This document shows positions 6,859 through 25,797 of a DNA stretch of 64,000 nucleotides, piece by piece. The notes below the pieces were generated by a model. It was given only the letters and a program-made list of their open reading frames with translations. It searched no databases and was not told the DNA's origin. The translations under genes and the position numbers were made by a program. Source of the stretch: Craspedostauros australis (Eukaryota > Bacillariophyta > Bacillariophyceae > Mastogloiales > Achnanthaceae). The stretch spans positions 310,001-374,000 of the forward strand of contig JAMXDE010000016.1 of assembly GCA_026770025.1 (NCBI GenBank), in the 5' to 3' direction. Numbering within the stretch: the first letter of the stretch is position 1; every line of letters starts with the position of its first letter.

Positions 6859-9800
6859 ATGGCAGGCCCAACTGAAACCCTCCCATCAGGGCGGGAAAGA
6901 GCCATCGAAACCTTGATCGACATGGAGCCCCAAGGTGCCATGTACAGAACTGCACGTCTTTTGGTAAGTGATCATGCTTTGATTGATGTGCATCCGTATA
7001 TTCATCCACATGTGCATGTGCGCAGAGGGGAGGAGGCAGTGGCTTCAGCGTGTTACCTTCCAACTTCAGGTTTTGATGCAAGAGTCACAAGAGGCAAGGG
7101 ACACAAGCTTGCCAAGGTGAATGCGACAGCCTCTCACATCGTACCCGTTCGTTCCTCTTTCGCGTATCGTTTCCACGCATCCGCCTTCGCTTCCACAACT
7201 ACTTGTACATGAACAGGACGAAGCCACGTCTCAGTCTGTCCACACGCGCCCCAACCTCATCACGAGAGCCGCATTGGTGGAACAAGCGTACGCCCTTCGA
7301 CACTACGAGATAGACACGACAAAGCAGTACGACCGCGCATTCGGACTGTCGCCTCCACCCAACAAGAGCTCACGCCACGACAATGCATGGATCTCGCAGG
7401 CGGAACCCTACAAGCTCGGCCGCATCCTTCGGCACCACTCCAAAATCCTTTCGCTCAAGAAACCCAAACCAGCCGTCAGCGCACCATCGTCTTCTGCTGA
7501 CGCTGATGTCATCAACGCCAGCACCAACAGCAACAGCGGCGGTGATGAGAGCAACTCAAAGAAAGATGCCGTCATCAAAAATCCACCATCGCCTCAGCTC
7601 GTGGCAGCATTGCGAAGAGCCTTTTCAGCCGGCGACGGTGACATCGATTCTGACAAGGATCAGCAGTTCATCCTCCGCAACCTTCTCAAGAGCGTCATGA
7701 ACCACCCCGTGTTTCAAGAATCCACTTGTGGAAAAGGAGGCAGCAACATGGACAAAATGAAGACACCGGTGCGATACAAGATCAAGTCCAAGTCCAAACT
7801 CACGCGATCGCACGCCGCATCCGAAGATGACAGCCACGACGATCAACGCAATGCGGACATGAGATCGGGATCATCCATCGACACACCCGAGCCCAGCCCG
7901 CCATCCGCGGACGGTGTCCATGCTTTGGAATGTCTCGTGTCCAAATCATTCTGCATGATGGCAGATTACGAAAAGACCAACACCCTTCTCAACGGACTCC
8001 TCATCACCATCCTGTCCATCCTCACGTCTCGACCGCAGCTGGATGCCGAGGAAGACATCATCCCTTCCGCGAAAGCTAGAAATCCCACAGACGCGTCGAA
8101 GACTGCCGTTGATGGACCTCTGGGAGTCCCATCCGTCAACAGCAGTAGCAGCGGCACTAACAGCAACAACAGCAACATATCGTCGGAAACTGACCCTCCC
8201 CAAATGCCGGTCCTGCAGATGGGTGCGCTGCTATCAACGATCCTCCCGCTCGACGAACCAAAAGATGAGGATAGCAGCTCCGATCTCGACGGCAAAGACG
8301 ACTCGTTTGATATCCCGATGGAGTTGCTAGAGTATCTCGGAGAGGCAGCCGCCGTCTATGAGGAGAGATTGGAAATACAGACTGAACGACTTCTGGAAAA
8401 GCGCCGAAAGGAGCAGGAGAGCAGTGAACACTCCTCGCCTCTAACACCAGCATTCCAGCTGTTCTCAGACTCCTTGGTGACATCGCGCAGGGCTGACGCA
8501 GGCACTGCAGTCGCGACGGCGATCGTCCCAGATGACAACAGAATTGGCGGTACCAACAACATCAATGCAGACGACGATGATGACGATGACGATGACGATG
8601 ACTTCGATCACATGGATGGCATGGACGACGACGATGATGACATAGACATTGCCGCAGCAGTCAGCGCAGCACTCCTTCAACAGATCATCGGAGGAACGAC
8701 AGTCAATATGGATTCCTCAGACGACGACGACGACGATGACCTGGACGATGATGACGACGATTCTTCGTCGGATGACAGCGACGACAGTGACGACAACGAT
8801 GGCCCAGCGGCCGAACATGACTTTGTGGAAGTAGTCCGGAACAGTGGGCTGCTCAATCTCGGGCTGGGAGGTCGCAACAACAATGCAGATTCATCTTCCT
8901 CATCATCTTCTTCATCCTCTGAGAGCAACAACGATCAACAAGCCACGAATGAAAACGCCGCACCCTCCGATGATGTCGATGACGCCGATGATGAGGACGA
9001 CGACGACATTGACAACGAAGAGCAGAACGAGCAAGCGAGGAACAATGGCTCCAATGACGCCACTCGAAGCGCTGGTACTCGCAGCGCTGGCGATGGCGAC
9101 AGCAACGACGATGACAGCGATGCCCTGCGACAAGCCCTGGCTATGAGTTTGGTCGAGATTTCCAACCCATCCGTCGAAGTCGAAGTGCAAAACAGCCGAG
9201 AGTCTTTGATCAGCGAAGGAAGCACGGGTCCAATCACACCCACTGCCGACTCTGCTACAGCCGATGGTCCCAATCCGGCCGGTGTCGAATCAGACGACAT
9301 CGACCTGGCGTTGCCCCCTCTACCACAACCTCCTGGCAGCTACCCATACGCTCCACTGATACCAAGTGGCGATTTGGCTCGACCTGCCGAGTATGGCGGC
9401 GAAGAAGAGGATCGCAACGCAGCCCTATCTAAGAAGTACCTGGACCCATCGGCGTTGGACAAGTTCGGTGCACTGCCTGCACCACAGGTGCTCATCCAGC
9501 TTCTCAAGTTCATCAAAATGCTGACAAGCAAGCAGCTGCAACGCCAGCAAAGTCGGCAACAGCAGAATGAGGAACGAGCGTCCGGAAAGCGGGGGAAGGA
9601 TGTCAAACAGCCCGACTCAATCACAGGAGGTCTCGGCTGCGCGCTCTTCCCTCCCACAGGGATGGTAACGAAGTCCGAGAAACCCAACAGCGGCCAAGAC
9701 GACGAGGAGAACCATGTCTCCTTTCACCTCCTTCTGTCCCTCATCATCGTCCTTGTCGAGCAACGCGATGCAGCATCGGAACAATACCACAAGGCCCTCC

Positions 9801-12800
9801 AACAGGAGAGCGCCGTATCGAGCGAAAACCAACTGTCCGACCACACCGACGACAAGGCAGGGCTGCTTGTGGAGGAGGAAGATCCAGCACTTGCCAAGGC
9901 ATTGGAATACCTCGATGACGCATCCGACTCGAACGACGCTTCTACCCTGGAGGCAAAGGGCATGAGCCGCAAGGCTGCCGCCGCCGCGCATGATGCCGCA
10001 ACCCTTGCCAAGACATTGAGACGTCGTTGCGAAGGCTGGGAGCAGCATCTGAAAATGCTATCCCAGTCATGCATCATGGTGTTGACAAGTTTGCAGCACT
10101 GGTTCCACGCCAATGCACGCTCGTGCTTGAGCGACAAAACTCGAACATTGGAGATGCAATCGGGAAAGCTGCCCCCGTCTTTTACGATGAAAATCGCAGC
10201 TGCGCTAACCTCGTTGATGCAAGGCACGACACCCAGAGCCGCTCACAGCAGCGCGCACGCAGGAGATCTGGCGCCAGTCAGTCTCGATTTGTACAGAAAG
10301 GCCCTTCAAGTTTGGGGCGAGTTCGTCCCCATGTCGCATCCCTCAAGGGCATCCCAAGTCGCCCTCCTGCGCACATACCTTGACGAATGCTCCAACGCAG
10401 ACGAGAGCAGCACGTCTTGCCATATCGATGAACTGAAAGCGCTGCCCACGACAAGTGCCGAAGTGTCCTTCCATCGGCTCCAGGTGCTTTGTCGCCGGCT
10501 CAGAGTGAGCGACTTGCTTGATCACATCATTCCGCGTCCAGCATGTCACTCGCCGAGCAATGCAAATGACACTCTTGAGCACGTCACACAAGCGCAAATA
10601 GTCACCGGCAGAGATGGCAACCCGACCTTCGTCAGCGATATCGTTCGTTCCATCCGAGCTTCGCCTGTCTTTGCCGCTGAGGGCGCTTCAGAACTTCGCG
10701 ATCTGTACATGGCGATCTGCCATCGATGCCATGTCCGTCTCCTTCTGTGGGATGGCCTTTGGGGCGGAGACAGTGAGAATGATGACAACGCCATCACTCC
10801 AAACTCGTCACAAAACGACATCATTCGCGTGAGCTCGAAGAGCTCGAATGTGTTGCAGTTCGATGCAACAAAATGCGCCGATTCCATAGCCATCTTCGCA
10901 GATGGATTGGACATTGGACCGAACGGTGCATCCGCACATCAACGGGCCTCGAAGGCCTGGGGCGCTGTCCTGTCAGCCAATTCGTACAGTCCGAAGACCG
11001 GCGTCCATCGATGGGCAGTGCGTCTCGACAAATGCGAACGCGGGCACGTCTTCGTCGGCGTGTCCACCGCACAAGCCAACATCAAGACGTACGTCGGGGG
11101 TGACAAGTTCGGCTGGGGAATGATCGGCACGCAGGCATTGTGGCATGACAGAAAGAAGATCCGCGGCGACTACGGTGCCACCTTCCGAACTGGATCGACG
11201 ATCATCGTGACGCTTGATACTGATGTGGGCACACTGAGCTTCACGTCGTGGAAGGACAGTTCATCGAATTCGTCGTTCTCCATCGACCCTCTGCTGCAGA
11301 CCCCAACGTCACCGCGTCGTCCAGGCACACCGTCAGGCACCATGGAGGATTGGGGTGTAGCATTCGAAGGGCTCCCTCTCGACTCCAAGCTTTACCCAGC
11401 CGTGGGGCTCTACCAGCGTGACGACCGCGTCACCCTGCTAACCGTGGAGAGCAGGGGGAGATCGACAACACGAGAAATGGTCTTCGATGGATCCGGAGGC
11501 AGCTGCTTCTACCCAACCTCATCAGCAGATGAGGCAGATGGCTCCGGCTTGAAGGCTGTTCGGGATATCAACAACCACCTCAGCTGGGATGGCACACAGT
11601 ACGTCTGTGACTTGCTGGAGGAAGTTGTTCGGACTGTGAAGGCCAAGAAGTTTGACGACCTTCACACAACACAACTGCTACCATCGCTCGGGGCGACGTT
11701 GAGCCTCATCCCATCATGGATTCCAAACCTCTCCAAACGCACAGCGCTCGTGCTGTTGCCTCGGATTGCGAAGTGCATCCTCGTTCTGAATCAGGCATGC
11801 AAAGACATGAAGGAAGAGGGTCAGCACCTTTCCCTCTGCAACATCCGAGAAGGCCAATGGATCATCCGAGCCACAGGATCATCAGGAACAACGACTGACG
11901 CCGAGGAATACGTCGTGGACATTTCGCGCTCAAGGTCAGGTCCCGACGGCACATGCACGCTTGGCTTCCAAGGTAGCGGCGTTGGAACTACTGGCAAATC
12001 CAAAAATGGGCTGGTATCAATCATGGGCACAACCCGAGGCTCCATGGTAACGTTCGTCGAAGAATGGTCCGAGGCCGGCAACACATCGGCCCAGTCAGGA
12101 AGTTCGGCACAAGACGACGACATCTCATCATCGTGCGTTGTCACGGCCAGATCCAGCCTGGATGGCACCAAATTCGAAGGAGTGTACAAGAATGTCCAGT
12201 TCGGAACCCAAGGTCAGATATCAGGATACTGGTCCCCACGCGCAAGCAAATCCATAGACGAACCCGCGGTGGCTTCCACCACAAACTGGACACTCACCGA
12301 CATGGCGGTACTCTGCCAAAGCTACGGCCATTTGGTCGCCATGATCGGCGATTCCGAAGGCTGGGACGCAGAGACCTCGCCGAAGCCAGAGAAAACCCTC
12401 TTTTCATCCAGCGAGTGGTCGAAGAGAACGACGGTGTTGCAAGAATGCCTCGATAGCGCCTTCATGTCCAAGCTTTCCATACCATCGGACTGGGAAGGCA
12501 ATGATGCAATCATGGAGTCTCTGCAGAGCGACTTCCGACCCCCAACCACCGTGTCGCAGCAGGATGACGAAGACTGGATGAAGCTGCTCCGTCTCGATGC
12601 CTTGCAAGAAGCCGAACCAAGCAAGTCCTCTGAACCCCAACGTACTCGTGAAATCAACGCTTGGATTTCCGAAGCCGTGCGCAAGATGGATCCCGACATC
12701 GCCCCACAAGCTGGCGGTTCTGGTTCGCTACGCATGCTTGCCCCACAGGAGTACAATGAGGCCAGAATCAACATCATCTGCGCCATGGTCAAGTTGGGCA

Positions 12801-15800
12801 ATCTGAGGAATCTGTTAGGAGGAACTCCGAAAGATGCTCCGATCCGTCTCATTGACGTGTGGCAGGCTGCACTATTTGTGATGGAGAATGGTGTACGAAG
12901 CGCGATCAGCCAACACAAATCTCAGAGCCGCCGTGATCAATGCAAGGCGGTATGCTCCCTTGTCAACAACACGTCGCTCTTCTTGCTGGGTCTTGAGGTC
13001 GATGACGATGATTCGACCTCCGTGACCATGATGACAACGGACATAAAGGCTTTCTACAAGACGGTAAACTCTGCTGAGGACCTGGAGTGGATCAAACTGC
13101 TGTTCAAAAGGTCAGCAACGAGATGCATCCTCAAGTACGTAGCGGCATCCCAAGCAACCCAGATGCTGTCAGAGCTTGGAACGAACCAAAGCCCAGCCTC
13201 CGCAGTCTCCCTCGAAGCCATGATCGTGTACATCCCAAGGATTCTTGGCAGAGACGGCAACGGGCTGAAGAGGGGATCCGAGCCAAAGTCAACGGCATCA
13301 GGCGGGTCTGTCGGCAGGCATTACCTCTCCTCCTTGTCCGGGGCCCAGTCCTCTGTCCGAAGGTCTCTGCGCAAAGCGGTGATCAAAATCTTTTACGAAC
13401 TTGGAGAAATCCTTGGACATTTGCTTTCAGGAAGAATCACGACTGCAATGCTGCAAGATAGAGCATCATGGGACTCGCTCACCATGTCGGTGCTCAGCTC
13501 CTTCATCACAACTCTGTACCCGGCCGATGTAGATGCCATCGCTTCGCAAAGCGACATCTTGAAGAGGCTCTCAAATCTCATTGCAACGCACGAGCCCGCT
13601 ATCAGATCGGTGCAATTCGAAGATGCAGCCGTGGATGAGATCGCGGACGGCGACAATCCTTTGCACCACCTCGATCATCTCTGCCAAAGAGATCTCTCGC
13701 GGGTCATCCTCAAATCCTCCGTTACCGCAGCTCATGTCCTCCACTCGCAAATCCTGTCCAATGCAACCAACACATCCGGGCGGTCGTTCGAAGAAGCGAC
13801 ATCCTTCCTCTACAATGAATGCCAACGAACGTTCCCGATTCTGCGCGACATCACGAAGACCATGATCTCGGAGCACTGTAAAAAGCAAGAGACTTCGACA
13901 TGGACCAGCGTAGTCGACTCGGTGGATGCTGGTGACAGGAAGACTTCATCGGCATCTCGAAAAACTGCAGAGGGTGCATCGAAGAGTTTCGGGGCTGGGC
14001 TCCGGCACATCGAAAGCTGGAGTATTTTCTCGAACGGACAAAGTCCGACGACATCCCAAAGGCCATCGACGAAGAACTCGAGATCGTCATCGTCCAAGAC
14101 CACGAGGGATGCCGTTGGTCGGTCCGAGCATAGCTTTGCGAACAAATACATGGGCAACATCCTCAACATGCTGTCGATGGTGTCGAATGATAAGCTCGCT
14201 CCGAAGTACATCAGCGAACGTCCAGAATGGCTCCATCTCTTGCTGGAGGGAATCGGGCTGAGCCCAGTTCAAGATTCGAACGGCACGTCCAGAATTCTGG
14301 CGTACGACGTCGCAAGCTCCCCGCAAGGGCTTCTCCCTGCACGCCACAGGAGTAGGCTTGTCCGCATGGTGCTTCCGATCGTGGAAGAACTCGATCCTGA
14401 CAATGCCCTCCTCATGGGATTGTTTGAAGCGGCAGGTTCAGCATCCATCCTCCTTGCCAAAAACCCTTTCGGGAATGAAGAGCAGGTGGTGAGGAATGAG
14501 ATCGTCTCGCTGTTGCGTCGCTTGCACAGACCAGGCAACTTGGCCTGGAGAGCCGAGCTGAATCGTGTCATCTTCGACGTTTTCAGAGATGCACAGCCCG
14601 ACACTGCGGACGCCACGGTGTCCGAGATTGGCATCCTTGCCTTCCTCAACGGCGGTCTGGATCAGATTCGGTGCGGTTCGTACGTTCTGATGAAACCGCC
14701 CACCGCTGCTGCCGTCGCCTCGGATCAGCAGTCGGCCCTGGGCATAAAGGGGCACAGTTCCGGCGGCAACAGCTCGTCAGTGGGAAATGTCCCACACCAT
14801 GTAGTCGGGAACGGCACTGAGGGAGTGATCGCAGGACTTTGTCGAGACGATTCATCAGCCGGTATTGTCAGCAGCGTCGACGTCAAGAACGGTCTTTGCG
14901 AAGTTGTCCTCCTCTCCCGTCAACAAGATACGGACGTCGGCGCAAACACGGACGCGGAATCGAGCGAAGCCGTCCTCGGAAAGCAGCCGAAGAATCGCAA
15001 GAGCAGTCGCAACGCGCTCACAGTCAGGGCATTGCGGTGCCCGCTGGGCGATGTCGTCCAAGTACAAGAGGTTCCTGTCGTCGTCAACGAGCCAGCTGAG
15101 AACGGGGAGCTGCAGACATTGATCCTGACGCGGACGCTGCAGAGAATCCAACCCCCCATCGACGCAACGGGATGCGCGGAAGAGAAGGACGTTGACGAAA
15201 AGAGTACCGACGCCAAAAGCGATGAGTCAAAGGAAGATCTGTCGTTGGCCGATGAAACATCAAAGACGACTCGATGCTGCGCCGCAACGTTGGCGCTGAG
15301 AGCAGCCATGACACTCCTCGCAGACAAGCGCAATCTGGAAGCTTTCATCAAGCGAGAAGAATCCAGAAAATGCCTCTCGCAGCTTCTGAATCTCTCATGC
15401 CAGAAACCGCTGCACACACCTGACGGGAACAACGTTGGCGTTTTCTTATCCTCAATCAATCTTTTGGAGGCGCGGTGCACACATCTCCTTTCTCTCCTTA
15501 ATGAACTCTCACTCCGCATATCAACTCTGGACGACGTGGCGTCTTCTGAGTGGGAGTCAAGAATTGCAGAACTTCGTGGCAAGCTGACATCAGCGAACGC
15601 TGCCGACGCTCATGCTGAGTCCAACAACCAGAACTCTGGCGGAGACGGGCACAATGATTCCGAGGGTGGAAGGCTCAGAACGCCGCCGCAAACCTCAAGC
15701 ACGAGCAGCAGAGGCAATGCCGATGCTGGGCGTGGCGATGAGCCTCGTGGCATCTCCCAATCGACGGCGGGAAGCGAAAACAGCGACGAAGATGAGAGCG

Positions 15801-18800
15801 AGGTCGCCGCAGCCGCCGCAGCACACCTGAGAGAAGCTGCTATTGTGCAGATGGCAGAGCTTGGTTTGCCAAGGCAGTGGTCGGAGCTTGCACTTCGACG
15901 CACCGGCGGCACCAACATCGAGGCTGCGGTACACTTCTGTCTGGAACATGGTGGCGACATGGATCGGCTTCTCGCGGAAGAACGGGACAGAGAGCGATCC
16001 AGTCAGAGAAGATCAAGTTCTGGCGGAAGAGGCCGCGGCGGACGGTCTGATGGAACCAGTAACCATCTTCTCCAGCAACTGCTCGAGATGGGATTCCCCA
16101 GCAGATGGTGCGCTGAAGCATTGGCAGCAAACGGTAACAACGTCGACGAAGCACTGACATGGATCCTCACCCACGGCGAACGCCTGACTGCGGAAGACGA
16201 GGCCATGGAAGATGAGGATGACGCTGATGATGATGACGACGATGATGACGACGACGACGATGAAGAAGAAGAGGACGACGAAGATGAGGATGACGATGAC
16301 GATGACAACAGCCAGAACGAAGGCAGCGACGTCGATGCCTCCAACGTTGAAGGAAATGATGACAGCAAGAGCGACAAATGCGATCCGAAACTCAAAAGGA
16401 CAAGTGCTGGCGAAGAGAGTGATGACACTAAGGCAGATATGAAGCCACATTGGAAGGGATCAGTCACGCCGTTGCGATTCATTTCCGGAAGATCCATCAT
16501 TGATCCCAAGACGTTGGCCATTTCCGGCCTTCCGTCTGGTGGGTTTTCGTCCGTTGGGACCAAGGGAATCCTTCTGACCAAAGGAAAGTGGTACTATGAG
16601 GCCATTCTGGAGACAGCTGGGTGCTTGCAAATCGGCTGGGCGGATGGTAGCTTTGCTGGCCACTGCCACGCCGACAGGGGAGACGGCTGTGGCGATGGGC
16701 CAAGTTCGTGGGCATACGACGGGTGGAGACGGTACCGTTGGCATTCTTCTGCAACCGAATGGGGCTGCCGGTGGAAGGAAGGCGACGTGGTTGGTTGCTT
16801 GGTGGACATGGATGAAAAGACCATGTCGTTCACCTTGAATGGACGCGGTGAAGAGATTGGCATGGGTGTTGCATTCTCGGGAACGGGTTTCCGTCCGTGC
16901 GGGGGTGTATACGCATGCGTGAGTTTCAACAAACGTGAAAAGCTTCGTCTCATTCTCGGAGGCAAGGACAATGAGCACTTCAGGTACCCGCCACCAGAGG
17001 GGTACCGTGGAGTTGGAGACGCTGTCCTCGATTCAGTCCAAGAACGCAGCGCTCTTGTCCGCAAGGAACAGATCCTTGATGGGATCGCCCAGGATGATGA
17101 CCACCGTTTCCTCTGCGATTTCTCCGACGGTGAACACGGCCACGAGCTCATGGCATGGGCGCACAGGTATTATGGATCTGACGCATCTGTGCATCTTGGT
17201 TCAGGGCGTCCGAAGCAGTCCAGTGGCAGCCAGAAATCATCAAGCATCATCTCCACCGGGACCATGACGCCTGCCAACTGCGTCGGTCGTCGACTGAAGA
17301 GCCACCTACCGAAGCTTGATGGTCTGTCGACGGAAGAAGCGAATCAGGAGGACGGAGTGATGGCATCACCGCATGCTAGGATGCGCAAATCACTTGACGC
17401 AGTGGGGTTGCAGATCGTTGAGGAGCTCAACAAAGAAAGCAAGGCTCTCCTCGCTCTGCTCGCTCAAAAACTTGTGCTCCACATCATTGTGACACTTGGT
17501 CAAGACTTTGACCCCTCCGTCTGCTTCGCAGAAGGCGACGTGGATGGTGCGTTGAAGCTGTGGGAGCTGCTTGAGTCAAGCTCGAGCCTCCTCTCCACCG
17601 GCTGGGTTGGAGAGGCCGGGGCGATGGCACTTGCAGCGGAAGCTCTCGGCTTGGGCATATCAAGCAACGAGCATGGCCACTCGCGTCATTCCGGATCCGA
17701 CAAGTCAGGAGTGGCCTCCATCGGAGATCTGGACGACGGGGTGCTCATTGCGAAGGGAGGCACTGTCCAAGTCCTCACCTGTCTCTTGCAGTGGCAACAA
17801 ATCCCCCAGGGCATGGACACGGGATCGACAATCGCTGCAGCAGCAGAGGCTGTCATCGGTTCGGATGGAGGCAGCGGGATCATGGTATTTTTGCAAGATG
17901 GCATCCAAAGTGCCGTGTGCAAATCTGCCACGTTCCGGAACATTGTCGTTGCAGCGGTGAGGAGAGGCGTGCGCCTTCTCTCTGTGGTTGAGTACGACGG
18001 CGACGATTCGGCATCGATAGATTCTCCTCGGGATGAAGATGATGAGGATGATGAAGAAAACGACGACGAAGAAGCAGAAAACGCCAACAAGGGCGATTCG
18101 TCACAGCGCAAGTCATCTGCTGCGAAGAAGAAGAGCGAATCCAAGAAAAATGCGAGGGAGACTGTGGCATTCCCCGATGCTCGGTTGATTTCGTTGCTTT
18201 CGGGTCTGTTGCTGAGTCCGCAAGTGGAGAATGGCGTCGAGTCGCACGATGAGATCAAGACCGGACTGTTCGAAGCTTGGAGCATCGGTTTGCTATCAGC
18301 CTCGCTGCCATGGAGAATGATATCGGCATTCACCGCTGCAGGGATCTTGAACACTCATCCTGCTGCCTTGAAGCAGGTTGTGGAATCGGTGCCAACACTA
18401 GGCCGTTACTTCGGGAGACTGAAGAATACGGTAAGCCGGCGTGTCTGGGCCGAGCGTGCTGCAGTGCCGGTCTGCTCGAGATACGTGCAGGCATTGATCG
18501 AGCTCGTCTCCGTCGTGCACAGAGCGGTTGACCCGGCCACATTCCCTGCGAGCTTCATGGAGTCATGGCGCACCGCAGAGGTAGATGCCGCGACCCCCAT
18601 GCAATATCTCGCCCCAGCAAGACAGGAAGGGGTTGCCCAGAGCAACCACTGGGAAGTGGAAGGCGGATGGCTCATGAGCGACTCAGGATTTGAGATTCTG
18701 ACCGGGACAGTCTCGTGCAAGGCCGTCGACTGGAAGACGCCCTCCAGATCCGCAGTCCGAACCCTGATGGATGGCGGCGACGGTCCGCCGATGCTCCGGG

Positions 18801-21800
18801 AGGGATGCCTTGTGGTGCGCGGGCTTGACTGGGAGGAATCGGGCAAGAACGGCACAGAGGATGGCAAGGACATCTACGAAGCAGCGAAGGTGAAGAGAGG
18901 AGAACAAAAGAAACAGCTGCACGACGACGAGAAGAAGGCAGCTCGCGAAGATCCGGATGACAAGACGAAAGGAGACTCTGAAGACGGAGACGATGATGGC
19001 GCGGGGACCAAGTCCGGTGAGCACAAGAGCAGCGGAAACGATGACGGAACCAAAGATGATGCGAATCAGATCTCCAGCGACACCCCCGATCCCGCCGATG
19101 ATTCGGCACAAGCAGATCTTCCAGAAACTACAACCGAAGGCAAGGGCAAGGAAAAGAACAAGAAGAAGAGGATTCCAAACCCGAAGCTCGCTCTTGGTAC
19201 GGTGATAGGAATCGAGCCGTGGAATGGAGTCGAGGGCATGGCGCGTCGTGTCCGTTGGCATCTGACAGGCAAGGAAGGCGTGTACAGATATGGAGGAGAT
19301 GGAGGAAGGTACGACATCAGCCATGTCGAAGTCAACGACAAGGCAACGCGCGTTCGCAAGCGCCACCCACTGCCAGAAAGCTCCGAGCAATGCGTATCCA
19401 GGCACGGGTTCGGCGTCGCCAAGCGTCACAATGTGCTTCTGCGACTGTCACGTGCAGCATCCAGATCTGGCAAGGAAGAGGAAAAGGAGGAGGATTCGGT
19501 CCATCACGGTATTCTGGAGTGGCCAGATTTTGGTGCCGGGGTTCAGGTGCAATGCGTTGTCCACGCCGATGGCTCCCTCTCCATTACGGAACAAGACCTG
19601 GTGTATGGTGCAAGGGACTCCGGGTGGGAAGCACGATTCGGGCACCCATCCTTCGTCGCTGGGACGACCTACATTCTCAAACCAAGCAATCGAACAAGCT
19701 CGCAGTCTGAGATTGATGCACGTTCGCCGCACCAGTCTCTGTACGAGGACCTCGCGGGAGGCAACACCTACGTCGTCCCGAACCTGCGCAACCGAGAACG
19801 TGGCGGCAGCAAGATCCAGGTCCTCAGCGAGATGAAACTCGCTCGATCGCTGCGACATCCAAAGAGCATCGGCGAGGTCGCGTCCGATCTTCAGACGATA
19901 CCGGCTGCTCCGATCCGATTCGACAGGTCATTCCATGCACCATCTCTGTCCCTGTCAAGGGACGGGCGGACAGTCTCGTGCACTTCATCCGACAGCCGAG
20001 GCACCGCATTCGCCTCTGTCGGTTTCACCAAGGGCGTCCACTACTGGGAGGTCAAGATCGAACAAGCTGACACGGGCAGCGTCTTCATCGGTGTTGCCGA
20101 GAAGCCATCCGGGTCTGGTGGGTCTGGATCTTCCTTTGGCTACGAAAGCCAACCGCGTCTCAACCGATGGCACGGGTGGGGCTTCGTCAACTTCCGAGCG
20201 ACCTACACGGCAGGGGCAGAACGTGTGTACGGTGCCCATTGCCACAGCGGCGACACGGTTGGCGTGTTGCTGGATTGTGACACAGGCAGGATCTCCTTCT
20301 TTTTCGATGGACTGAAGTACGGAGAGCACATCATGAACGATCTCGGGTGTGCATTCGAAAACCTCTCGCCATTTGGCTTCAACGTTGATGGGTGCGGCAG
20401 CGGCGGTGCTGCGCAAGGCGCTCCAAGCGGAATTGACATTGGAAGAAGCGGGCGGTACCCCGCACAAGGCGCAGTGCGTCCGAAGGCGCTCTGGCCTGTC
20501 ATCGGTCTCAGGAACGTGGGTGACAGGGTGACGATATCATCGAAGTGGTCCACAAGCTACGGCATCGACGGGCGCGCCATCGTGGATAACATCCTTGCTG
20601 CCGACGAAGTCCTGTCTCTGTACAAGCAGTGCATACCACGCCGCATCAGTCGCAGCAACAACAACGACAGCACCAGTACCAGTGCCATTCCGAAGGACAG
20701 CAAGGGCATCGCCTTCCCGCGATGGTTCGTGGAAGAAGCATTTGCCGATTACCGAAGGTGGTTGTCGGCGTCCACATGCTACTCCCAAACACGAGGCAGC
20801 GGACCCTACAAGCTGGCATCTTTCGGCCTTGACGTGGAACTTGACCGGTCGCCGCTTGCCTGTGCGTCTGCCAGCGCACTTCTGGGATTGCCCCATGCGC
20901 TGCTGCCAGGTGACAGAGTCCATCTCAAGAGGAGCGCGGGCCGCGTTCTCGAATTAGCCGAAGAGGCCACCATACTTGGAACTTGCCAGGGCCGATTGTA
21001 CTACAGAATCGCATTGCAGAAGAGCGAAGGTGGTAGTCTGACCGAAGGCGGTGGACGCGCATGGTACTTTGACGAAAGCGAGGTCGTCGACGGCCTCCCA
21101 AGCGTCGAGCACAATCGCGCTCGGGATATCGAGCTGCCGATCATGGCTCGATTCCGATGCGTGTCGCCTGGAGGGCTGAAGATTGTTTTCTCCAACGGCG
21201 CGGTCGTCAGATCCGACCTTGAGATCTTCGAGGGATCGGCCAACCGCGGAACGATCCCCGTGAACACCGTCATTCCCAAGTGCGACGTCCTCGAAAGACG
21301 CGTCAACTCTTGCGGAGTGGTCCGTTACCGCGTGAGGTACGAACCTCTCGGCGAAGGTTGGATCAGCAGCAGAATCAGAGGAGGGAAGGAAGAGCCGATC
21401 GTGCTCCCTGTCAAAACAGACGCAGACGGCGAAACCAGGAACGACGAGGAGCTTCCCAAATCGCCAATCCAATGTGCGCTGCAGTGGTTCGAGAAGTACA
21501 AACAAGCGCACGGAGATGCGGGGATGGACCAGGGTGACACCGGCCCCACCATAGCCGAATTTGAAAAACTCATCGAAGATGGAAAGATCGGTGGACTGGG
21601 AGACGTGGAATCGGACACGATATTGGCCAACGCGCTGAGTCTGATCAGCGACTGCTGGAAGGAGGGTGATGCGCTCAATTCGCCATACCACATCGTCCTC
21701 GCAGCGGTCAAGCATGCCATCAGCACAAAGCAGGGCCAACCCGATGATCCGTCAGGCGACGGTGACTCTACTTGCAACGAGGCAGCCGTGAAGTCGCTTG

Positions 21801-23347
21801 GTATGCTGGCCACCCCGATCCCACATGCCACTGCCATCATGGCCAGGCTGTCCATCATTCGTTGCTTGAACAAGCGTTGCCGAGTCGCGCTGCCATGGAT
21901 GCCTGTCCGCCCAAGCCAGGAAGGTACAGGTATCTTGGGTGGGCTGTGCGGAACCGGCGCCCCGGTTGATCGTGCAGGACGCAGCCGGCATCTTGCGAGC
22001 CCTGCCAACTGGGTGGTTGTGCCATCGATCGCCGGTAAGATCCGTCAGTTCCGAGAGCTCATTCTCCCGAGCGTGAAGAATGAATTCCTCCGCTCAGTGA
22101 CCAGCATCACGGCCACGCCAACTCCGCTGTCGCACGATGAGTACGAACTGCCGCGAGAGATTCGCACCGTCCGTCTCAACCGCCTGAAGGCAAGACGTGT
22201 GATGAACAGTTCAAACAGCGGCATGATACGCAAGTACAGCGTGTTCTCACAGCTGCAGAACGAAACGAAGGGGTGGGGTGGAAATGCCCTCCGCCGAGGC
22301 TTCGTTGCCAAGGGACATGGAGGACAGCGAAGAGCATTCAAGGTGAAGCTGATCGGCGAAGGTGTGAATGATTACTCAGGACCTTACCGTGAGGCCTTCG
22401 CGGACGCGATTCACGAGACGCAGCAGCGCGATGAGAACGGATCCGGCTGGCTGGGAGTGTTCGATCCAACTCCCAACAACGTGACAGGCGTCGGCGATCA
22501 GCAGGACCTGTTCATGTTCTCCCTCAACGGCAAGGTTCTCGACGGAGACACGAAGGATGTGTCCGCCACGGAACGACGCATCCGCGATGCTTTCTCCAGC
22601 CTCATGACCGTCCGAGACGAGACCGTCAGAGAGGTGGAGGAATCGTTGGTGTTCCTTGGGCGTATTGTGGGAACAGCATTCCGTCATGGCATTGCCCTCG
22701 ATCTGCCCCTTCCGTTGGAATCGGTGTGGAAAGCGATCACCGAGGAGCAGACGACGAAGGAGAGGTGCATGGAGGAGATCGACCTGCTGTCGAACAAGCA
22801 GGCTGACGATTCTTCACGGCCAGTCTTGCTCTGGTGGCAACAGCGCATGCTGAATGCCTTCGTGGAGGGCTTGTGCAACGTCATCCCAGTCGAACTCCTC
22901 TCACTGTTCACAGGCAGCGAGCTACGAGACGTGATTTGCGGCAGCCACGAGGTGGATGTGGATCTGCTCCGACGCGTCGTGGAGTATGAAGGGTACAAGG
23001 GAGACGAGCCTACCATCCAGTACTTCTGGGAGACTCTGGAAGAGCTGAGCAACGACGAGAAGAAGCTCTTCCTCCAGTTCGTGTGGGCTCGTAACCGGCT
23101 GCCAAAGAAGGAAGGCGACTTCGATGCGCCTTTCAAGATCCAAGAAGACGTGAAGGCCCAAGGCGAGAACAAGGACGTGTCGCTTCCCAGCGCAAGCACC
23201 TGCTTCTTCTCGTTGGCGTTACCCAAGTACTCCAGCAAGGAAATCCTGAAGAGCAAGCTGCTGTTCGCCATCAACAACGTCACGACGATGGAGACGGACT
23301 TCCAGACCAACAGCGCCGAGATCGCCGAAGGTTACAAGACCATTTAG
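6859..23347 (+). CDS. Giant HECT-type E3 ubiquitin ligase with SPRY, UBA and MIB/HERC2-like domains
   Basis: Exon 1 (6859-6963, 35 codons from MAGPTETL) joins a single huge exon (7217-23347) through a GTAAGT...CAG intron in phase 0, giving about 5,411 residues. The ATG at 6859 was preferred because the long frame has no good start before the acceptor. Domains by approximate residue: SPRY 1243-1450; UBA 2904-2945 and 2983-3023; SPRY 3110-3280; a MIB/HERC2-like piece 4023-4076 (VRWHLTG...YRYGGDGGRYD); SPRY 4267-4483; C-terminal HECT from about 5073 with catalytic Cys 5364 in STCFFSLALPKYS. Several Asp/Glu runs occur (about 487-518, 535-560, 3032-3067). HECT ligases take ubiquitin onto this Cys from an E2 and pass it to substrates; SPRY and UBA parts usually bind substrates or ubiquitin. 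The layout recalls HERC1/HERC2/HECTD4-type giants, but I cannot assign an ortholog. AATAAA follows at about 23669. Confidence 0.9.
8570..8800 (+). repeat. Asp-coding GAY triplet tracts inside the HECT exon
   Basis: Two long GAC/GAT runs (about 8570-8660 and 8718-8800) encode near-pure Asp stretches. A third run, also with GAA/GAG, lies at about 16206-16310. Both GAC and GAT are used, so the tracts are not pure microsatellites and may be kept for their acidic charge. Confidence 0.85.
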
Positions 23348-25268: not shown

Positions 25269-25273
25269 AAAAA
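25269..25273 (-). terminator. Pol III-type oligo-T run after the permuted tRNA gene
   Basis: On the minus strand five T residues lie seven bases after the end of the tRNA 5' half. Runs of four or more T are the standard RNA polymerase III stop signal. The position supports the reading that both tRNA halves sit in one Pol III transcript ending here. Confidence 0.65.
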
Positions 25274-25279
25274 GAATAC

Positions 25280-25357
25280 TTCGTAGTCAGACGCCTTGCC
25301 GTTGGGCCAACAGGTCACCAGAAACCTGCCCGGGATTCGAACCCGGAATCTTCTGAT
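25280..25357 (-). tRNA. Circularly permuted tRNA-Arg(ACG) gene: 3' half upstream of 5' half
   Basis: Read on the minus strand, the 3' half comes first (25357-25323). It has anticodon-stem strand TCAGA, variable AGATT, T-stem CCGGG, loop TTCGAAT, T-stem CCCGG and acceptor strand GCAGGTT. After six bases (25322-25317) the 5' half follows (25316-25280): acceptor GACCTGT, TG, a D-arm starting GCCC and ending AGGC, then G, anticodon-stem TCTGA and loop CTACGA(A). Rejoined in normal order, the acceptor pairs over 7 bp (two G-U), the T-stem over 5 bp and the anticodon stem over 5 bp. The loop reads CTACGAA with anticodon ACG, and the body closely matches plant and animal tRNA-Arg(ACG). Maturation would need circularisation of the precursor, cleavage of the six-base linker by tRNA end processing, and addition of CCA. 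The exact ends in the anticodon loop are uncertain by one or two bases. A decayed duplicate is the alternative, but every stem is intact. Confidence 0.85.
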
Positions 25358-25378
25358 CGCTGAGTGATGTTGCAGGTC

Positions 25379-25797
25379 ATACTTGGGCTTATAATCTGTG
25401 AAATATGTCCAAACTTACGAATTCGTCCAACGCAAGCTTCCTTTTGCACATTGACGAGCAACTTCATTCTTCCTCAACGACGGCAACAATACTTGGTCCC
25501 ATGACACGCTCATGGATGACTATTCTATTCGTTTAGGAAGCAGCATCCACAAACGTGTACACAGCGTGTTCGCTGATGAAGCGAGAAGCAGTTGATCACT
25601 CCGAGACATTCGCAACGTTGGTCTACATTGATCCAAACATTACGATGCGGATTCTGTGCTGTGCTCCCGGACAGCGTCATGTAAGCACCATGCCATTGCT
25701 GTTCTACTTGCAGTTGCACGTATGTATTCGAGTGGACTATCATTATTTCCATTACCATTCTCGCTGCAATGCACAGAGTGCTCTACTGTCCTCTGGT
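25379..25797. other. Intergenic region upstream of the permuted tRNA gene
   Basis: This lies between the tRNA gene (its 5' flank, minus strand) and the 3' end of the membrane-protein gene. It is AT-rich near 25388-25420, where a Pol III upstream element could sit, but I see no defined motif and no gene. Confidence 0.45.

Follow-up and report, generated by a model that had tools for sequence, protein, structure and literature searches.

Circularly permuted tRNA-Arg(ACG) genes in five dispersed nuclear copies of a likely diatom, probably matured through an RNA circle

Permuted tRNA genes have been described, in the sources cited here, from a red alga, from green algae, from chlorarachniophyte nucleomorphs and from one archaeon. 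The most extensive table lists 34 of them, found in C. merolae, four prasinophytes, one nucleomorph and one archaeon (PMC3978253). In that table there is no gene for tRNA-Arg(ACG), no stramenopile and no species with more than two permuted genes per tRNA (PMC3978253). Permuted genes of Auxenochlorella (PMC12636532) and of a second nucleomorph (PMC4494063) have been added to this list. The route through an RNA circle is documented for algal permuted tRNAs (PMC3978253). Among the titles and abstracts listed from the open-licence literature, we found no report of a permuted tRNA in diatoms or their kin. Here, we describe what are very probably five functional circularly permuted nuclear genes for tRNA-Arg(ACG) of type II (37/38), probably matured via an RNA circle. 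The kind of gene is already known, while the lineage and the dispersed family of five copies appear to be new. The presence of such genes in the main genome of a probable diatom extends the range of permuted tRNAs to a large group with a different kind of host cell.

The window analyzed is a stretch of 64,000 nucleotides (C14:310001-374000). On its minus strand, positions 38-72 of tRNA-Arg(ACG) (25357-25323) lie upstream of positions 1-37 (25316-25281), and a six-base spacer TCTGGT (25322-25317) separates the two halves. The permuted order and the anticodon had been proposed in an initial annotation of this DNA, and both are borne out by the sequence, the order in addition by five loci with swapped halves. 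The elements of the window copy are, in the direction of transcription:

25389..25393, minus strand: TATA-like TATAA, some 32-36 nt before the 3' half, which may act as an upstream element for Pol III
25358..25369, minus strand: leader (-1 to -12), able to pair with C32 (through the G at -3) and with the trailer, from the comparison of five copies
25323..25357, minus strand: 3' half of tRNA-Arg(ACG), positions 38-72, identical in 5/5 copies
25322..25322, minus strand: probable discriminator base U73, a T in 5/5 copies
25317..25321, minus strand: linker CTGGT, which RNase P and tRNase Z are expected to excise from the acceptor end, on the model of PMC3978253
25281..25316, minus strand: 5' half of tRNA-Arg(ACG), positions 1-37, with the anticodon ACG, identical in 5/5 copies
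25269..25280, minus strand: trailer with the T5 terminator (25273-25269), of the form T4 or longer followed by G

The rejoined halves form seven acceptor pairs, five T-stem pairs, five anticodon-stem pairs and a D stem of 3 bp, and RNAfold returns a cloverleaf of -24.0 kcal/mol for the rejoined RNA. All stems had been said to pair; two of the acceptor pairs are G-U. The conserved bases U8, G18G19, U33 and TTC at 54-56 are present, and the initial annotation likened the body to ordinary eukaryotic tRNA-Arg(ACG). The first base of the spacer, a T in all five copies, is probably the discriminator U73, which would leave a linker of 5-6 nt. By comparison, an A follows the acceptor stem in the linear genes for Arg(TCG) and Arg(TCT) of the same genome. 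ARAGORN and Rfam each report 0 tRNAs in the window, as is to be expected when the halves are swapped. Standard scanners would thus miss this gene, and tRNA annotations of diatoms may omit it.

The organism's own assembly (74.8 Mb, 90 contigs) was searched as a whole with the rejoined 71-nt tRNA as query and E up to 10. Ten matches were obtained, and each covers a half of the tRNA. They fall into five loci, on contigs C14, C43, C41, C33 and C3, every one of which has a single 3' half and a single 5' half, with the 3' half first in every case. Both halves are identical in all copies (71/71 tRNA bases), while leaders, spacers and trailers differ. The spacers measure 6, 7, 6, 6 and 7 nt in the order of contigs given above; all are different, and so are the linkers of 5 or 6 nt that remain without the presumed U73. 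The spacers on C14, C41 and C3 look alike by eye, which hints at a common descent of these three copies. Ungapped, the 30 nt on either side of the loci are 13-50% identical, and BLASTN between flanks of about 1.5 kb gives short matches only (best E 0.064). The flanks are unrelated, so these are five separate loci at which identity ends at the borders of the mature tRNA. The same 35 + 36 nt recur in swapped order in unrelated surroundings and are therefore not a product of chance. Such confinement of identity to the mature tRNA is expected under selection on a mature RNA to which both halves contribute. An assembly artefact or a set of alleles was considered and rejected, since the copies lie on five contigs (0.57-3.67 Mb) and their flanks are unrelated. 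An organelle gene was likewise rejected: the window lies in C14 (1.72 Mb), while by gene content C90 is the plastid genome and C83 and C89 are mitochondrial.

The five copies also fix the site of the joint. In the window alone, A25280 and A25357 can both be read as position 38. In the other four copies the base after A37 is C, C, T and T, and this divergence assigns A25280 to the trailer and places the joint between A25281 and A25357, that is at 37/38. The earlier borders of the 3' half (25357-25323) thus stand, while the 5' half had been extended to 25280, one A too far. In all five copies identity stops at A37 and resumes at A38. In eukaryotic pre-tRNAs, base 32 pairs with base -3 of the intron (the A-I pair). 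Leader base -3 is a G that faces C32 in 5/5 permuted genes. The 37/38 position is the canonical intron site of eukaryotic tRNAs (PMC9602550, PMC4090602), and the A-I pair is mentioned in a figure legend of the latter. Leader and trailer can pair beside this site as well. Base -7 pairs with +2, and -8 with +3, in all five copies with changes on both sides at both positions (A-U, C-G and G-C at -7:+2; A-U and G-C at -8:+3). Together with G(-3):C32 these pairs score 15/15, a value that randomly drawn upstream positions reached in 0 of 200000 draws. When 96 registers are compared over three pairs, the +2/-7 register is the best with 13/15, and the runner-up reaches 12. Across the junction, 100% of the cells are paired in the anticodon stem, 80% in the outer helix and 55% in the central helix. 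Against the junction, column shuffles reached the observed value in 13/500 cases for the percentage paired, in 76/500 for pairs with two-sided changes and in 7/500 for the covariation score. Free folding gives the whole junction cleanly in 2/5 copies, and leaders also pair with the trailers of other copies in 25/40 cells. We describe the predicted junction as a relaxed bulge-helix-bulge, in the relaxed form only and with a weak central helix.

Signals for transcription were compared between the five permuted genes and 39 linear tRNA genes taken as nuclear (35 plus four tRNA-Met genes). Within 25 nt downstream, a run of T4 or longer followed by G is present in 5/5 permuted and 34/39 linear genes, compared with 2.1% of 25-nt stretches drawn at random from the window. 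This run begins 3-7 nt past A37 in the permuted genes; the T5 run that had been noted after the 5' half is indeed there. None of the five has a T4 run inside the transcript, the linker between the halves included. Where a linear gene has a T4 run within 25 nt, the next base is G in 34/36, compared with 53% of the T4 or longer runs in the window. With few exceptions, the predicted Pol III terminator of this genome is a T run with G as the next base. Permuted and linear tRNA genes share an A+T peak at about -42 to -25. The leader promoter of the permuted genes is putative, and it counts against their function that the B box precedes the A box.

From these features a path to the mature tRNA can be proposed. 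Pol III would transcribe the gene from the leader through the 3' half, the linker and the 5' half into the trailer, and stop in the T run. The arms of the permuted pre-tRNA would fold as in an ordinary tRNA, and pairing of leader and trailer beside the anticodon stem would create a junction for the tRNA-splicing endonuclease, which would cut before A38 and after A37. A tRNA ligase would then join A37 to A38 into a closed circle, from which RNase P and tRNase Z would excise the linker before CCA is added. Maturation through a circle is probable on this reading, and the genes may be essential. Transcription, the circle, the ligase, charging and inosine at 34 are steps that we infer from DNA sequence. 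The genome contains elements that fit such a path. At 4/4 loci, elongator tRNA-Met is interrupted at 37/38 by a 16-nt intron, again with G(-3), so splicing at 37/38 is evidently in use here. These four loci lie on C14 and C3 in two head-to-head-like pairs. The splicing-endonuclease domain PF01974 has two matches, one over the cut-off (43.7 bits) and one under it (25.2 bits). The ligase RtcB has 0 matches in the genome, while 9/14 control genomes are positive, which suggests a tRNA ligase of the 5'-phosphate (Trl1) type. The profile PF09511 has 0 matches as well, but it is uninformative as 0/14 controls are positive.

Three other explanations have to be weighed against functional permuted genes. 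The permuted loci could be silent rearranged copies, pseudogenes or a dispersed repeat, while a linear gene serves the cell. Repeats derived from tRNAs are widespread among eukaryotes. A linear gene of divergent sequence could also have been missed, since the Rfam tRNA search of the genome scored 63/1610 candidates (a stricter cut-off gave the same 63/1610) and probes for Arg(ACG) from yeast and Arabidopsis failed to detect the permuted copies themselves. Against this, five unlinked copies keep 71/71 tRNA bases amid diverged surroundings and have paired junctions and terminators. Several intact linear tRNA-Arg(ACG) genes would have spoken for a silent copy; the exact 71-nt query finds 0 linear genes in the whole assembly compared with five permuted ones, and a contiguous anticodon arm with 0 or 1 mismatch has 0 matches. 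Allowing up to two mismatches gives 11 arms, each with two, compared with 5 for the reversed control; ARAGORN finds no tRNA at three of them, and the other eight were judged by their letters only. We consider a divergent linear gene unlikely, and silent copies as an account of all five loci very unlikely. Outside this genome, a 20-nt piece of the 5' half had one match in GTDB contigs, in DNA that looks bacterial and coding and holds no tRNA by ARAGORN, and IMG/VR gave 0 matches for this piece and 0 for a 32-nt piece of the 3' half.

That the two halves are used in trans, with the transcript cut at the linker and the parts joined as a split tRNA without a circle, is even less probable. Sequence alone cannot show that one molecule closes on itself. 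However, the linker is free of terminators and the transcript has no internal T4, and leaders pair with the trailer of their own copy in 10/10 cells compared with 25/40 for swapped combinations, a background that arises because leaders are A-rich and trailers T-rich. The known algal cases treated in PMC3978253 pass through a circle. The least credible of the three, and close to negligible, is that the loci are remnants of head-to-tail tandem tRNA genes in which the 3' half of one gene stands beside the 5' half of the next. Such neighbors do exist. A covariance model of permuted tRNAs (trained on 17 rows, one of which is this tRNA-Arg(ACG)) has its best other match, at 49.2 bits, in linear mitochondrial Met and Val tRNA genes that lie 5 nt apart, and neighboring linear genes can thus mimic a permutation. 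The five permuted copies, however, score 64.3-67.2 bits, each locus has one 3' half and one 5' half with the outer halves absent at 5/5 nuclear loci, and the cut lies at 37/38 in 5/5.

With functional permuted genes as the preferred reading, these genes are probably the only source of tRNA-Arg(ACG), which would be the cell's only reader of CGU and CGC. If there is no linear gene, an essential decoding function depends on the formation of RNA circles. In an open frame of 5408 aa, CGU, CGC and CGA make up 190/329 Arg codons. This frame lies at 7121-23347 of the window on the plus strand, is uninterrupted and has a C-terminus that by eye resembles a HECT ubiquitin ligase. Linear genes, presumed nuclear, are present for Thr(TGT, AGT), Ala(CGC, TGC), Arg(TCG, TCT), Gly(TCC), Lys(CTT, TTT), Ile(AAT), Ser(GCT), Trp(CCA) and the intron-bearing Met. 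Probes for Gly, Phe, Asp, Ser, Leu and Pro gave matches of linear-gene length (anticodon unread), and the Asn probe matched tRNA-Ile loci only. Probes for Tyr, Gln, Glu, His, Val, Cys, initiator Met, Arg(CCT) and Ala(AGC) had 0 matches, which is uninformative on gene order. Going further, we lean towards the view that dispersed permuted genes, via obligatory RNA circles, provide this lineage (and perhaps diatoms in general) with its entire cytosolic tRNA-Arg(ACG) and thus with all decoding of CGU and CGC. The permuted form would then be old, would have replaced the linear gene and would have multiplied as a permuted unit that kept only the letters of the mature tRNA. Five identical unlinked copies are a natural replicate, in which drift outside the mature tRNA exposes by comparison the features that splicing requires. 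Dependence on RNA circles, if true, would make the use and the origin of permuted genes testable in culturable diatoms.

The genome itself has diatom features. The host had been taken as an alga with a red-type plastid, and the genes of the plastid contig agree. This contig (C90) carries rbcL, and the best solved relatives of its product are 7yk5, 5mz2, 5n9z, 5oya and 6ftl, which we take to be diatom Rubiscos. The silicon-transporter family PF03842 has 88 matches genome-wide, 32 of them above 760 bits; among the controls 1/14 has a match, which is under the cut-off. The family also occurs in some chrysophytes. Many PF03842 matches have near-identical scores and some contain internal stops; their abundance may reflect a large recent family expansion or heterozygous copies. 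According to PMC8975779, nuclear tRNA-Arg has C20 or U20 in diatoms and A20 in other algae, although A is given for two species in Table 2 of that paper. In the present genome, the permuted Arg(ACG) has C at position 20, one of two Arg(TCG) genes has U and the other C, and Arg(TCT) has U. These states of base 20, the silicon transporters and rbcL agree in pointing to a diatom nuclear genome. The tRNAs of C83 recur on C89 with a constant circular offset of about 66.26 kb, the size of C89, and it appears that the mitochondrial genome, which includes a gene-poor A+T-rich stretch, was assembled two times.

The closest known type II set shares with the Arg(ACG) family the 3' half in first place, the 37/38 junction, a short intervening sequence, the T stretch after the 5' half and a TATA-like element upstream. 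That set comprises six genes for Gln, Leu, Thr and Gly(CCC) with at most two per tRNA, while here one tRNA, Arg(ACG), has five copies in a likely diatom. Its intervening sequences span 7-74 nt, compared with spacers of 6-7 nt including U73 here. The permuted genes of prasinophytes (Ostreococcus, Micromonas) and Auxenochlorella are likewise nuclear and mostly have the 37/38 junction (PMC3978253, PMC12636532). However, these are green algae, and the prasinophyte entries in the table of PMC3978253 are Ser, Leu, Cys, iMet, Asn and Arg(TCT), with no Arg(ACG). Bigelowiella natans and Amorphochlora amoebiformis, also algae with a secondary plastid, have tRNA-Ser genes in their nucleomorphs that likewise combine the 37/38 junction with a spacer that is very short, 5 bp in B. 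natans (PMC3978253, PMC4494063). These genes reside in a relict green-algal nucleus, whereas the Arg(ACG) genes lie in long contigs of a main genome whose assembly has silicon transporters elsewhere. Within the same genome, the elongator tRNA-Met shares with the permuted genes the splice site 37/38, G(-3):C32 and the T run followed by G downstream, and differs in its linear order with a 16-nt intron.
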